Virus record (IMG/VR): IMGVR_UViG_3300043410_000920
Span: 1-39,887 of that record
DNA from: a virus
DNA: 39,887 nt
Reading direction: 5' to 3' (one strand)
Both the position numbers and the translations under genes were made by a program. This document shows, piece after piece, positions 7,752 to 39,887 of the stretch (positions within the stretch are counted from its first letter, which is position 1; each line of letters begins with the position of its first letter). The notes beneath the pieces were generated by a model. It had not been told where the DNA came from. It ran no database searches and worked only from the letters and a program-made list of their open reading frames with translations.

Positions 7752-9047
7752 TTGACAACCAGCATTGCCAAAATGGCCGAGCGCATCGAACTGTGGCCGG
7801 TGGACCGACTGCAGCCATATGCAAAAAATGCCCGCACGCACAGCGACGAGCAAATCGACCAGATCGCAGCGTCTATTCAAGCCTTCGGGTTCACTAATCC
7901 GATCTTGGTGGACGGTACGGACGGCATAATCGCCGGTCATGGCCGGTTATTGGCCGCAAAAAAACTGAATTTCCAAGACGTGCCGGTCATCGTGCTGGAC
8001 CACCTGACCGAGGACCAGCGCCGCGCCTACATCATTGCCGACAACAAGCTGGCGCTCAATGCCGGATGGGACGATGCGTTGCTGGCCGAGGAACTGGCCC
8101 GCCTGCAGGATGATGGCTTCGATCTGGCGCTGACCGGCTTCAGCGACGAGGAACTGGCCGACCTGCTGCCCCGCATCGATGACGACGAGGGCGGCACCAG
8201 CGAGGCAGACGAAGTGCCGGCCGTCCCGGTGCATCCGGTCACGCGCCCTGGCGATGTGTGGGTGATGGGCCGCCACCGGCTCATGTGCGGCGACAGCCTG
8301 CAGCCCGACGCCACCGGCGTGCTGATGGGCAACGGCCAGGCTGACCTGGCGATCTGCGCCATGGCGTTCACCGACCCGCCGTGGAATATCGCCTACGGGG
8401 ACAACGGCCGCCGTAAGGGCCGCGCCATCCTGAACGATAACCAGGACGCCGACAGCTGGCAGGCGTTCGTCGCCGACTTCGCCGGTTCGCTGTCCATGGT
8501 GACGCGCCCCGGTGCCCCGGTCTATGTGGTGATGGGCGCCAACGAATGGCCCACGGTCGACGGTAGCCTGCGCGAGGCCGGGTTTCACTGGTCCAGCACC
8601 ATCGTCTGGGTCAAGGACCAGTTCGTGCTGACGCGCAAGGACTACCACGCGCAGTATGAGCCGATCTGGTACGGGTGGAATGGCGGCGCCGCCCGCCTGC
8701 GTCCGGTCGAGGACCGCACCCAGTCCGACGTCTGGCACATCCCCCGCCCGAAGGTGTCCGAACTGCACCCGATGACGAAGCCGGTGCAGCTGATCGAGCG
8801 CGCGCTGGAAAACAGCAGCGACCCCGGCGCCGTGGTGGTCGACCTGTTCGGTGGCAGCGGGTCGACCCTGATCGCCTGCGAAAGCACCGGCCGGTCGGCG
8901 CGCCTCATGGAACTCGACCCCAAGTACTGCGACGTCATTGTCCAGCGCTGGCAGGAGTTCACCGGCAAGACGGCGACCCTCATGGGCACCGGTGAGCCGT
9001 TCGGGCGTCGCGCCTCCAACGACAATGCGGCAGCCGCCGTCGCCTGA
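7752..9047 (+). CDS. ParB-domain DNA methyltransferase fusion
   Basis: A 431-residue fusion. Residues about 10-110 are a ParB/Srx-like domain (RLQPYAKNARTHSDEQIDQI, then GFTNPILVDG and GHGRLLAAKKL). The rest is an N6-adenine or N4-cytosine methyltransferase of the type with motif IV first: DPPW at 208-211 and the SAM-binding DLFGGSGST at 364-372, with DEDP-like target regions not obvious. No restriction enzyme is nearby, so it is an orphan enzyme, likely protecting phage DNA or acting before packaging. I chose the TTG start at 7752, which has GGGGAAG six bases upstream; ATG 7773 is the alternative. The start codon lies in an operator-like palindrome. Confidence 0.85.
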   Translation: MTTSIAKMAERIELWPVDRLQPYAKNARTHSDEQIDQIAASIQAFGFTNPILVDGTDGIIAGHGRLLAAKKLNFQDVPVIVLDHLTEDQRRAYIIADNKLALNAGWDDALLAEELARLQDDGFDLALTGFSDEELADLLPRIDDDEGGTSEADEVPAVPVHPVTRPGDVWVMGRHRLMCGDSLQPDATGVLMGNGQADLAICAMAFTDPPWNIAYGDNGRRKGRAILNDNQDADSWQAFVADFAGSLSMVTRPGAPVYVVMGANEWPTVDGSLREAGFHWSSTIVWVKDQFVLTRKDYHAQYEPIWYGWNGGAARLRPVEDRTQSDVWHIPRPKVSELHPMTKPVQLIERALENSSDPGAVVVDLFGGSGSTLIACESTGRSARLMELDPKYCDVIVQRWQEFTGKTATLMGTGEPFGRRASNDNAAAAVA

Positions 9048-33517: not shown

Positions 33518-34672
33518 CTAACCCGCCTTGACGCTGGCGAGGACCCGTTCGGCAGCCACCTGCGCGTTCCGGCGCTTGCGTTCATCGTACCCATGCACAT
33601 AGCGTTCGGTGGTGGCCATCTTGCGGTGGCCAAGCATGTCCGCGATGTCGCGCTGCGACAGACCCGCCATGTGGCCAAGGCTGCCGAGCGTGTGGCGCAG
33701 GTCGTGGATGCGGACGTCATCGAGGCCGATCTTCTTGCGCATCTTGCCCCAGTGGTGCTGCGGGTGGTTCAGCGGCGCCGAGCAACGCATGTTCGGAAAC
33801 ACCCAGGGCGTGATGTGCGGCTTGAACGACTTCAGCCGGCGCAGGACATCCAGCACGGCATCAGACAGGTGGACCACTCGCGCGCCGGTCTTGCTGTCGG
33901 GCAGGGACAGCGTGCCCTTCTCGAAGCTGACCCATTCCCATCGAGCCTGGCCCCACTCGCTGCAGCGCAGGCCAGACAGCAGCAGGACCCGGACCAGCCA
34001 GGTGAACGACCAGGTTTCGAAGCCGTCGCGGTCCATCTTGTCCAGCTGCGCCATGAGCCTGGCAATTTCGTCGTCGGTCAGGATGCGCGTGCGTTCGGCT
34101 TCTTTGAACCGGCGCACATCGGTGACCGGGTTCGTGTGACGTGGACGCCAGCCCCATACCTCGCAGGCGATGAGTGCCTGGCTGACCAGCTTCAGCACCT
34201 TGTTGGCATTGACGGGGTGATCGCGCAGCTTGGCCTGCAGGTCCTGAATGACCTCGACATCGATGTCGGCCACGCGCCGCTTGCCGATGTGCGGCAGGAT
34301 GTGAAGCCGGAACAGCCGGTCGTAGTTGCCCCACGTGCCGGCCTTGATCGTTGGCGGCCGGTGCAACTCGAGGAAGCGCGCCGCCAGGTCCTTCATGGTG
34401 TGCTTGACGATCTGCTTCCTGGGGTCCTGGCCATCACGCACCATCACCAGCGCGGTGCGGGCGCGATCGCGCGCCTGGTCCAGCGTCATCACCTTGGTGG
34501 ACCCGATCACCATGCGACGGCTGGCGCCTGACCTGGTGCGATACCGCAGAACGAAGGACTTCGCACCAGCTGGCGTGACGCGCACGCCGAAGCCAGGCAC
34601 AGTGTCGTCCGCAAGCCACTGTTCGCGGCCTGTGGACACAGAAGACCGGATGATGAGTTTCGTCAGAGCCAT
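33518..34672 (-). CDS. int: Tyrosine integrase
   Basis: A 384-residue tyrosine recombinase. The N-terminus has an arm-binding-type domain (AKSFVLRYRTRSGASRRMVI), then a core-binding SAM-like domain, then the catalytic region with Arg in LLSGLRCSEW, Lys in DSKTG, HDLRHT, LGHRK and the nucleophile Tyr in ATTERYVHG. It inserts and excises the prophage by recombining att sites. I use the ATG at 34672; a GTG at 34678 adds two residues. The start codon touches a TGGGCAC repeat, so integrase may also control its own gene. Confidence 0.93.
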   Translation of the reverse strand: MALTKLIIRSSVSTGREQWLADDTVPGFGVRVTPAGAKSFVLRYRTRSGASRRMVIGSTKVMTLDQARDRARTALVMVRDGQDPRKQIVKHTMKDLAARFLELHRPPTIKAGTWGNYDRLFRLHILPHIGKRRVADIDVEVIQDLQAKLRDHPVNANKVLKLVSQALIACEVWGWRPRHTNPVTDVRRFKEAERTRILTDDEIARLMAQLDKMDRDGFETWSFTWLVRVLLLSGLRCSEWGQARWEWVSFEKGTLSLPDSKTGARVVHLSDAVLDVLRRLKSFKPHITPWVFPNMRCSAPLNHPQHHWGKMRKKIGLDDVRIHDLRHTLGSLGHMAGLSQRDIADMLGHRKMATTERYVHGYDERKRRNAQVAAERVLASVKAG

Positions 34673-34689
34673 GGGCACACCGTGGACAC
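34672..34689. promoter_or_regulatory. Paired TGGGCAC-type sites, int side (arm-type)
   Basis: TGGGCACACCGTGGACAC contains two TGG(G/A)CAC units, 11 bases apart, one DNA turn. It is nearly identical to the site at 34880-34897 (two mismatches). A third single copy, TGGACAC, lies at 34633-34639 inside the integrase gene. They resemble arm-type binding sites used by integrases, here also covering the int start. Confidence 0.6.
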
Positions 34690-34879
34690 AGGATTGAAAG
34701 AACGGGCGTGATTATGCCGCCCACGCGGTGAACGCCTCAATCGCGAAAGTGTGCATTCCAAGGGTGTTTCTTGAACTTCTGTGATGTGCCGTGATCGGCG
34801 CACGTGACATCGGCGGGCTTTTGGGTAGTCGGGCATAGTTCAATGAATTCAAGGGGTTGAGTGGGCGCCTGAAAACCGG
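34690..34879. other. Putative attP core region
   Basis: No gene was found in this stretch between the two paired repeat sites. Its central part is a mildly A/T-rich segment (about 34838-34862) with TTCAATGAATTCAAGG, a plausible strand-exchange core of tyrosine integrases. The exact core cannot be fixed without the host junctions. Short minus-strand ORFs cross this area but show no protein family and are probably spurious. Confidence 0.45.
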
Positions 34880-34897
34880 TGGGCACACAGTGGGCAC
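34880..34897. promoter_or_regulatory. Paired TGGGCAC sites, far side (arm-type)
   Basis: TGGGCACACAGTGGGCAC holds two TGGGCAC units 11 bases apart, matching 34672-34689 at 16 of 18 positions and in the same orientation, about 208 bases away. The two sites bracket the putative attP core. Confidence 0.6.
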
Positions 34898-34937
34898 CGA
34901 AAAACGTGAAAAGCCGGTACAAACCGGGAACATGGGC

Positions 34938-34971
34938 AAAAAAAAGGACCGGCAGGCGTCCCCACCGGTCC
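34938..34971 (-). terminator. Terminator of the leftward recombination operon
   Basis: On the minus strand, GGACCGG (complement of 34965-34971) pairs with CCGGTCC (complement of 34946-34952), followed by eight Ts (complement of 34938-34945). It lies ten bases beyond the AlpA-like gene stop and separates the recombination operon from the attP/int region. Confidence 0.8.
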
Positions 34972-34980
34972 ACGCGCAGG

Positions 34981-35175
34981 TTACGCCGCCGCCGACCTAG
35001 TGCGGTCCTTTTCCCAGTCCTGAACGGCAGAGACGGGGTACAGGACGCGACCGCCGACCTTGGTGAAGCGCGGGCCGTTCCCCGTGCTGCGCCAGTTGGC
35101 CAGGGTGCGCACCGTGATCGCGCCCTTGTATCGGGCCGCTAGTTCGTTGGGCGTGAGATAGGTTTCTGCATTCAT
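34981..35175 (-). CDS. AlpA/MerR-type HTH protein, possible excisionase
   Basis: A 64-residue protein with a winged HTH (YLTPNELAARYKGAITVRTL, then ANWRSTGNGPRFTKVGGRVL, YPVSAVQDWEKD), typical of AlpA/excisionase proteins. It may bend att DNA for excision or regulate the integrase. The ATG at 35175 is preferred over 35184 because GAGGG is nine bases upstream of it but directly adjacent to the other. It is the last gene before the leftward terminator. Confidence 0.75.
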   Translation of the reverse strand: MNAETYLTPNELAARYKGAITVRTLANWRSTGNGPRFTKVGGRVLYPVSAVQDWEKDRTRSAAA

Positions 35176-35200
35176 CGCTTTCATCCCTCAAAGGTTCGCG

Positions 35201-38646: not shown

Positions 38647-39096
38647 ATGGCATCAGTCAACAAGGTCATTCTGGTGGGCAACTGCGGGCGAGACCCGGAA
38701 GTGCGCTACATGCAAGACGGCAAAGCCGTGGCCAACGTCAGCATCGCAACGTCCACACGCCGCAAGGACAAGAACACCGGCGAGATCATCGAAGACACGC
38801 AGTGGCACCGCATCACGTTCTACGAACGCCTGGCCGAGATCGCCGGCGAGTACGTGAAGAAGGGCCGCCCGATCTACGTCGAGGGGCGTCTGAAGTACGG
38901 CACCTATACCGACAAGAACACCGGCATCGAGAAGAACACCTGCGAGATCATCGCCACCGAATTGCAGCTGCTGGGCGCGCGTGAAGACGGCGCAGCACCT
39001 CGCCAGTCTGCACCTGCAGCGGCACCTGCACAGCGTCCCGCACAAGCCCCACGCCAGTCCGCACCGGCTGACATGGACGACGACATTCCGTTCTGA
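38647..39096 (+). CDS. ssb: Single-stranded DNA-binding protein
   Basis: A complete 149-residue SSB. Residues 1-110 are the OB fold (VNKVILVGNCGRDPEVRYMQ, DTQWHRITFYERLAEIAGEY, KKGRPIYVEGRLKYGTYTD), then a Gln/Pro/Ala linker, then the acidic tip DMDDDIPF. It coats single-stranded DNA during phage replication. The last 60 residues are nearly the same as those at 2-184. Next gene starts 12 bases later. Confidence 0.95.
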   Translation: MASVNKVILVGNCGRDPEVRYMQDGKAVANVSIATSTRRKDKNTGEIIEDTQWHRITFYERLAEIAGEYVKKGRPIYVEGRLKYGTYTDKNTGIEKNTCEIIATELQLLGAREDGAAPRQSAPAAAPAQRPAQAPRQSAPADMDDDIPF

Positions 39097-39107
39097 TCGG
39101 GGGCGGT

Positions 39108-39578
39108 ATGACACGATGCTTTGACTGCAAAACGTGCGCCTTCCTTGCCTACCCGCAAGCCGGCGAGCCGTGCATTGATTGCGAACCAGGCAATGATCAT
39201 GGAACCCACTATCTGCCGAATACCGGCGCAGCCAGTCCTGGCGCGATCTACAAGCTGCCGGAAGGTGTGAAGCTGGAGGACCTGAAACCAGGCCCGCTTA
39301 CCGGCAGCATCGACGCCACGCTTTCCGAGCGTGGCAGCCGCTACGGCACATTCAAAAGCCACTCTGAGATCACAAAGAACATGTTTCGAATGTTCCAAGC
39401 CCACATGGGCGTGCAGAAGTTCGAAAGCATGGCGGCGTATCAGCAGGAAGCCCTGCACATGATCTTCCACAAGCTTGGCCGCATCGCCAACGGTGACCCG
39501 AACTATGCCGACAGCTGGGTCGACATCGCAGGCTACGCCAAGCTGGTGGCCGATGGCCTGGAAGGTGTCGAACGGTGA
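39108..39578 (+). CDS. DUF6378-like protein, diverged homologue of 196-666
   Basis: 156 residues, the same length as the left-end homologue. C7, C10, C22 and C25 are kept and Cys4 is extra, and the core (LTGSIDATLSERGSRYGTFK, NGDPNYADSWVDIAGYAKLV) is conserved. The N-terminal sequence and the segment after the first conserved block (about residues 85-115) are quite different. This looks like an allele from a related phage. Its stop overlaps the next start as GTGA. Confidence 0.75.
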   Translation: MTRCFDCKTCAFLAYPQAGEPCIDCEPGNDHGTHYLPNTGAASPGAIYKLPEGVKLEDLKPGPLTGSIDATLSERGSRYGTFKSHSEITKNMFRMFQAHMGVQKFESMAAYQQEALHMIFHKLGRIANGDPNYADSWVDIAGYAKLVADGLEGVER

Positions 39579-39887
39579 AAGAGAACGCCATCCAGCAACT
39601 TGTCCGCCTGGCGCTCTCTGAGGCCGGCGCCACCATGTTCCGCAACAACGTCGGGGCCACGCATACGCCTGACGGCCGGCTTATCCGGTACGGCGTCTGC
39701 AACCCCGGCGGCAGTGACTTGATCGGCTGGAAGTCGGTCGAGATCACGCCCGACATGGTGGGCAAGAAGGTGGCGGTTTTCACAGCGGTGGAAGTCAAAG
39801 GCCCACAAGGCCGACCCACCGCCGACCAGATGCACTTCCTGGCTACGGTCGCCCGTGCCGGCGGCCTGGCTGGCATCGCAAGATCAC
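39575..39887 (+). CDS. VRR-NUC domain nuclease, cut by the window end
   Basis: The first 104 codons of a VRR-NUC gene that is nearly identical to 923-1267. The start codon here is GTG (GTGAAAGAGAAC), overlapping the upstream stop, where the left copy uses ATG after an extra gene. The five visible base differences are silent, so both copies are under selection and functional. Confidence 0.85.
   Translation, partial: MKENAIQQLVRLALSEAGATMFRNNVGATHTPDGRLIRYGVCNPGGSDLIGWKSVEITPDMVGKKVAVFTAVEVKGPQGRPTADQMHFLATVARAGGLAGIARS

Follow-up and report, generated by a model that had tools for sequence, protein, structure and literature searches.

Putative arm-type sites bracketing attP of a phage DUF4102-type integrase, and a partial residue-to-base rule among its relatives

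The integrase locus and its paired double sites

The window, meaning the whole 39,887-nucleotide stretch of DNA that we analysed, is an IMG/VR virus record in which head and tail genes of a phage are present. Positions 1–1235 of the window recur at 38912–39887 in two blocks (916–1235 at 97.5% and 1–674 at 76%), which fits either a tandem array of genes or a circular genome whose closure joined divergent variants, and the protein encoded at 7752–9047 matches ParB-like partition families and DNA methyltransferases alike. On the minus strand, the region under study reads in the order excisionase-like gene, terminator-like hairpin, far arm, gene-free interval, promoter-like sequence, near arm and integrase, and has the following features:

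33518–34672, minus strand: tyrosine integrase of 384 amino acids (Pfam PF13356 arm-binding, PF14659 SAM-like and PF00589 catalytic domains; phrog_1 integrase)
34632–34641, minus strand: possible third P' unit; GTGGACACAG, within the integrase gene, repeats near unit 1 exactly over 10 bp
34672–34690, minus strand: putative near (P') arm double site, TGTGTCC (34684–34690) and TGTGCCC (34673–34679), 11 bp apart, with position and 11-bp period as in relatives
34711–34740, minus strand: promoter-like TTGAGG-18-CATAAT for the integrase (one found; mean of 0.1 in shuffles)
34860–34869, minus strand: weak, tentatively unit-like sequence beside the far arm, GGCGCCCACT (also given as AGTGGGCGCC)
34880–34898, minus strand: putative far (P) arm double site, GGTGCCC (34892–34898) and TGTGCCC (34881–34887), matching far arms in relatives
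34946–34971, minus strand: terminator-like hairpin that separates the far arm from the excisionase-like gene
34981–35184, minus strand: 67-amino-acid HTH_17 protein (PF12728), a candidate excisionase (RDF; phrog_66 'excisionase and transcriptional regulator', 2.3e-07)

In the integrase, the PF13356 domain, which we take to be DUF4102, matched with 62.3 bits against a cut-off of 27, and PF00589 with 76 bits. Residues R236, K261, H323, R326, H349 and Y358 are invariant in our alignment A1 and are presumably the conserved catalytic R, K, HxxR, H and Y. The AlphaFold model had a mean pLDDT of 88.5, and its best matches using Foldseek were to lambda integrase, with the first domain resembling the arm-type binding domains 3ju0, 3jtz and 3rmp (target-normalised TM 0.82–0.91). 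The protein is an arm-binding (AB) domain tyrosine integrase of the IntSXT/DUF4102 type, a subgroup whose definition is given in the sections of PMC8138268 available to us.

The initial annotation had reported matching 18-base double sites on either side of the likely attP, and both 18-mers lie where it had placed them, with TGGGCACACCGTGGACAC at 34672–34689 and TGGGCACACAGTGGGCAC at 34880–34897, on the same strand, 208 bp apart from start to start and identical at 16/18 positions. They were also the only 0-mismatch matches of the pattern TGGRCACNNNGTGGRCAC in the window. Read in the integrase (minus) orientation, the near site is made of units TGTGTCCACGG and TGTGCCCATGG and the far site of units GGTGCCCACTG and TGTGCCCACCG, and the one-turn spacing described for the two units of each double site was confirmed at 11 bp. 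The statement that one site covers the integrase start was nearly correct, in that the near site adjoins, and overlaps by a single base, the ATG that is consistent with the family (CAT at 34670–34672). An equally good 18-mer pair arose in 1/1000 dinucleotide shuffles of the 401-bp region. However, pairs of at least 16/18 within 60–400 bp also occur at several other places in the window, in coding or repeated DNA, and the 7-mer TGGGCAC is only mildly enriched (16 occurrences against 9.5 expected); the pair taken alone is thus modest evidence, and it is the relatives that decide.

Arm sites in relatives and the interval between them

We compared the window with the 80 best of 550 confirmed genome loci, the 80 best of 444 viral loci, a single additional viral locus and eight phage or plasmid records; among 170 entries in total, 22 lacked a start or had a cut or short 5' side and were set aside, which left 148 usable. 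No integrase more than ~41% identical to that of the window was present among the matches listed in the genome, viral and protein searches, and because no relative found exceeds this value, none shares the exact attP of the window. Likewise, a single-protein viral scan gave no close relatives, and the window integrase had no match in phages that share the primase, for which the records of 8 of the 18 loci were searched. Protein searches with the integrase at strict cut-offs returned no matches in 369 genomes (from the class of a MAG titled Gammaproteobacteria) and two, both at 38% identity, in 385 genomes (from the class of a MAG titled Alphaproteobacteria).

With near-identical upstream regions removed, and a tandem defined as at least 8/9 in the last 90 bp before the integrase, we detected an 11-bp tandem just upstream of the integrase in 41/74 genome or record loci (from the best 80 of 550 genome loci and the records) and in 22/59 viral loci (from the best 80 of 444), compared with 0–6 loci for each of the other lags from 7 to 23 and ~0.5 in shuffles. 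Paired integrase-like genes, arranged head to tail with short gaps, were seen in three places (G009:C195, G010:C49 and G568:C96), and the one such pair that was checked, L397, has no 11-bp tandem.

We examined the far arm in 24 viral or phage loci, which were picked by the near tandem alone, by seeking the same word 120–330 bp upstream. The locus's own word was found at 15/19 or better on the same strand in 13/24 loci, compared with 0/24 on the reverse strand, 0/480 in shuffles and 11/552 when using the words of other loci; a far arm of at least 14/19 was absent from this interval in 9/24 loci, one of which (L121) has a copy at the distal end. Across a set of 18 regions, window included, the arms are 198 to 265 bp apart, and in Aeromonas phage ST4 a near TGCGCCC doublet and far GGCGCCC/CGCGCCC doublet are separated by 222 bp. 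For the integrated form, the word was present downstream at 15/19 or better on the same strand in eight of 80 near-tandem loci (L060, L066, L071, L081, L084, L091, L092 and L121) and on the opposite strand in 1/80, and as downstream sequence was covered to at most ~10.6 kb, the 72/80 misses are uninformative for long elements. In seven of the eight, the distal word is followed at 46–85 bp by a 27–47-bp repeat, with the other copy of the repeat upstream of the near arm, and as judged from sequence this is an attL/attR pattern. As in a lambda-type attP, repeats representing putative arm sites are therefore found on both sides of the interval in the window and in relatives, and the free-form far arms and the distal copies in integrated relatives support the proposal that the double sites bracket attP.

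We searched the inter-arm regions for tRNA pieces; Rfam did not report the half tRNAs, and they were recovered using BLAST against 33 tRNAs found in the retrieved loci. A match at E≤1e-3 was found in 9/18 regions, with the window not among them: 45–47 bp of a tRNA 3' half in six (L057, L060, L116, L126, L131 and L137), a full tRNA-Val in L188, and partial tRNAs in L146 and L193. Additional tRNA-like pieces were recognised by eye only in L129, L161 and L170, while Rfam and BLAST against the 33 tRNAs found no tRNA piece in the window interval. The expectation that the core lies between the double sites held in those relatives where a tRNA marks it, and in the window two features stand out in this interval:

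34783–34811 (29 bp), minus strand: candidate core, GATGTCACGTG-CGCCGAT-CACGGCACATC, an 11-7-11 inverted repeat (9/11)
34847–34859, minus strand: IHF-like site CAACCCCTTGAAT, between the far arm and the core, with 8/9 informative bases of YAANNNNTTGATW

An inverted repeat of 9/11 or better occurred in 0.045 of shuffles. Measured to the starts of the two arms, the centre of the candidate core is at distances of about 101 and 107 bp; the corresponding distances for tRNA loop centres in L146, L161, L170 and L129 are 106–110 and 101–110 bp. This weak inverted repeat is our best candidate for the core of the window attP, with roughly even odds of being correct. A search for a host attB with the core pattern in 369 genomes gave three matches versus four for the reversed control, which is chance level, and a viral 17-mer search gave four matches, none with an integrase nearby. 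Scoring against YAANNNNTTGATW, which we take to be the IHF consensus, gave an IHF-like score of at least 8 of 9 in the far halves of 9/18 regions in the same orientation and of 1/18 in the opposite orientation.

TCACG repeats ~10–13 bp apart were also observed beside the core in some attP regions (L002, L131 and the window at 34783–34811), and these are possible excisionase sites. In phage ST4 (L002) a whole tRNA-Lys is located at 1094–1166 beside attP, and the interval contains only CTGATTAAAAGTC, at about 1300, which resembles the Lys anticodon loop; the phage tRNA-Lys is possibly a replacement for a disrupted host tRNA.

Arm word and arm domain

Aligned units read TG-NNNN-C, with T1, G2 and C7 nearly fixed and positions 3–6 variable. 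Across 62 integrases, word similarity tracked arm-domain identity (Mantel r 0.59; partial 0.39 given the catalytic domain, p 0.001), with only a small contribution from the catalytic domain (partial 0.09, p 0.068), noting that partial Mantel tests can be liberal under shared ancestry. By mutual information, position 4 of the unit was linked to residue 43 (p 0.027) and position 6 to residue 53 (p 0.013); in the AlphaFold model, residue 43 is located on strand 38–45 of the arm domain and residue 53 on strand 51–58. In a training set of 48 non-redundant integrases, K43 was associated with GT in 7/7, Q43 with T4 in 19/20, R43 with G at position 3 or 4 in 9/9, and R/K53 with C6 in 26/33, the remainder having A6 (six) or G6 (one).

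A further pair of viral scans and a pair of genome searches supplied held-out loci, of which 25 were retained once redundant loci, loci lacking an 8/8 tandem and loci with at least 70% arm-domain identity to the training set had been removed. Here, K43 was again accompanied by GT (3/3 versus 1/22 for others, p 0.0017), and G6 was not seen with R/K53 (0/16 versus 5/8 for other residues, p 0.0013), while the R43 rule (4/4 versus 10/21, p 0.105) and the Q43 rule (6/7 versus 9/18, p 0.18) were not significant; W53 had G6 in only 1/3. Across all 87 integrases, with the unit register set without positions 3–6 preferences and uncertain for some units, G6 was found with R/K53 in 0/62 versus 18/25 for other residues, and GT at positions 3–4 with K43 in 9/10 versus 1/77 for others. 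Furthermore, when the arm domain was left out of the tree, residue 53 contrasted in 12 edge-disjoint pairs, of which nine were concordant, three neutral and none reversed, and 7/7 pairs contrasting at K43 were concordant. The closest contrasting pair, L033 (K43, F53, TGGTAGC) and L370 (M43, K53, TGTTACC), are 0.25 apart on this tree, and it is possible that the arm domain was exchanged together with the arm sites. The window also fits, with R43 paired with G4 and R53 with C6.

Each integrase has its own word, partly predicted by two amino acids, and DUF4102 (PF13356) arm domains probably follow a residue-to-base code in which residue 43 sets positions 3–4 and residue 53 sets position 6 of a TG-NNNN-C unit repeated every 11 bp. 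If true, knowing only the integrase sequence would allow arm words, and hence attP flanks, to be predicted in part, and a change in the arm domain would be accompanied by a change in the word. The suggestion that the literal word could serve as a code for searching other genomes did not survive, because each integrase has its own word, and the 19-mer of the window word gave 0 stretches in viral contigs. What can be searched for instead are TG-NNNN-C doublets, 11 bp apart, with about 200–265 bp between arms, combined with the residue-to-base rule.

Interpretation and comparison with known systems

In our interpretation, the DUF4102-type integrase encoded by the phage itself has its P arm-type site at the far double site and its P' arm-type site at the near one, with attP bracketed by the two; from the sequence comparisons we assign this a probability of about 0.92. 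The double sites might instead be bound by an excisionase, as a 67-amino-acid HTH_17 excisionase-like protein adjoins the region and the RDF sites of Apl from phage 186 are direct repeats one turn apart (PMC7498355, in the sections available). However, this seems unlikely: the sites flank the core, recur at each end of integrated elements and have a word that varies in step with the arm domain of the integrase and with its residues 43 and 53, and a separate TCACG repeat, seen near the core in some relatives, is a more promising RDF site than the doublets. It is very improbable that they serve only as operators through which some regulator controls the integrase promoter, and take no part in recombination: the near site does adjoin the start codon and follow a promoter-like sequence, but this leaves the far copy unaccounted for, together with the distal copy that in integrated elements is beside the core and far from the integrase, and autoregulation by the integrase itself is compatible with arm sites. 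A chance repeat in GC-rich DNA, which the other pairs in the window and the mild 7-mer enrichment might suggest, is scarcely credible given the shuffle result, the 11-bp spacing of the units in both double sites and the recurrence of this architecture in relatives that use other words.

With the double sites as integrase arms, attP would comprise roughly the 190 bp between them. On each arm, the N-terminal β-sheet domain of integrase protomers would read TG-NNNN-C units spaced by one helical turn, with the SAM-like and catalytic domains acting at the core between the arms and an IHF-type bend probably on the far side of the core. As the near arm follows the promoter-like sequence and runs up to the start codon, bound integrase may well dampen its own expression, although we regard autoregulation through the near arm as evenly balanced.

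In lambda attP there are arm sites on both sides of the core, together with IHF, although the lambda arms are unequal, unlike those of the window. Lambda Int is likewise a heterobivalent integrase and gave the best Foldseek matches, but has a different arm-domain family and word. In KplE1 (CPS-53) of E. coli K-12, a putative IntS arm unit abuts the ATG and matching units are present at the other end, as in the window, and arm sites overlapping the integrase promoter have been published alongside negative autoregulation (PMC2951348, in the sections available). However, the KplE1 units are inverted between the ends and spaced 12–14 bp (by eye), whereas those of the window share the same orientation and are 11 bp apart, and KplE1 targets tRNA-Arg while the window interval has no tRNA piece. 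According to the available text of PMC11963761, arm-type motifs for IntS of ICEMlSymR7A flank the core in a 283-bp attP with the consensus TGKTGGTATC, which shares its TG start with the window units but differs in having five sites and another word, and in belonging to an ICE and not a phage. Cluster K mycobacteriophages (CrimD, Anaya and Adephagia) have pairs of 11-bp putative arm repeats flanking the core, and changes in the sites were noted together with substitutions of the N-terminal residues 17 and 19 (PMC3203893); these integrases belong to another group, the second pair is inverted in CrimD, and the available sections cover a few close phages and hold no family-wide residue-base rule.

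Within the open-access literature we found no family-wide arm-site survey or recognition code. The attP described here is ordinary, its layout is already known and the comparison with relatives supports it well; what is new is the family-wide residue-base rule. Few integrases have known arm sites, and where a tRNA mark is missing, as in the window, attP and element ends are hard to call. The layout combined with a partial residue-to-base rule would allow arm sites, attP and element ends to be predicted across a large integrase family, and changes of specificity by mutation or domain exchange become directly testable.
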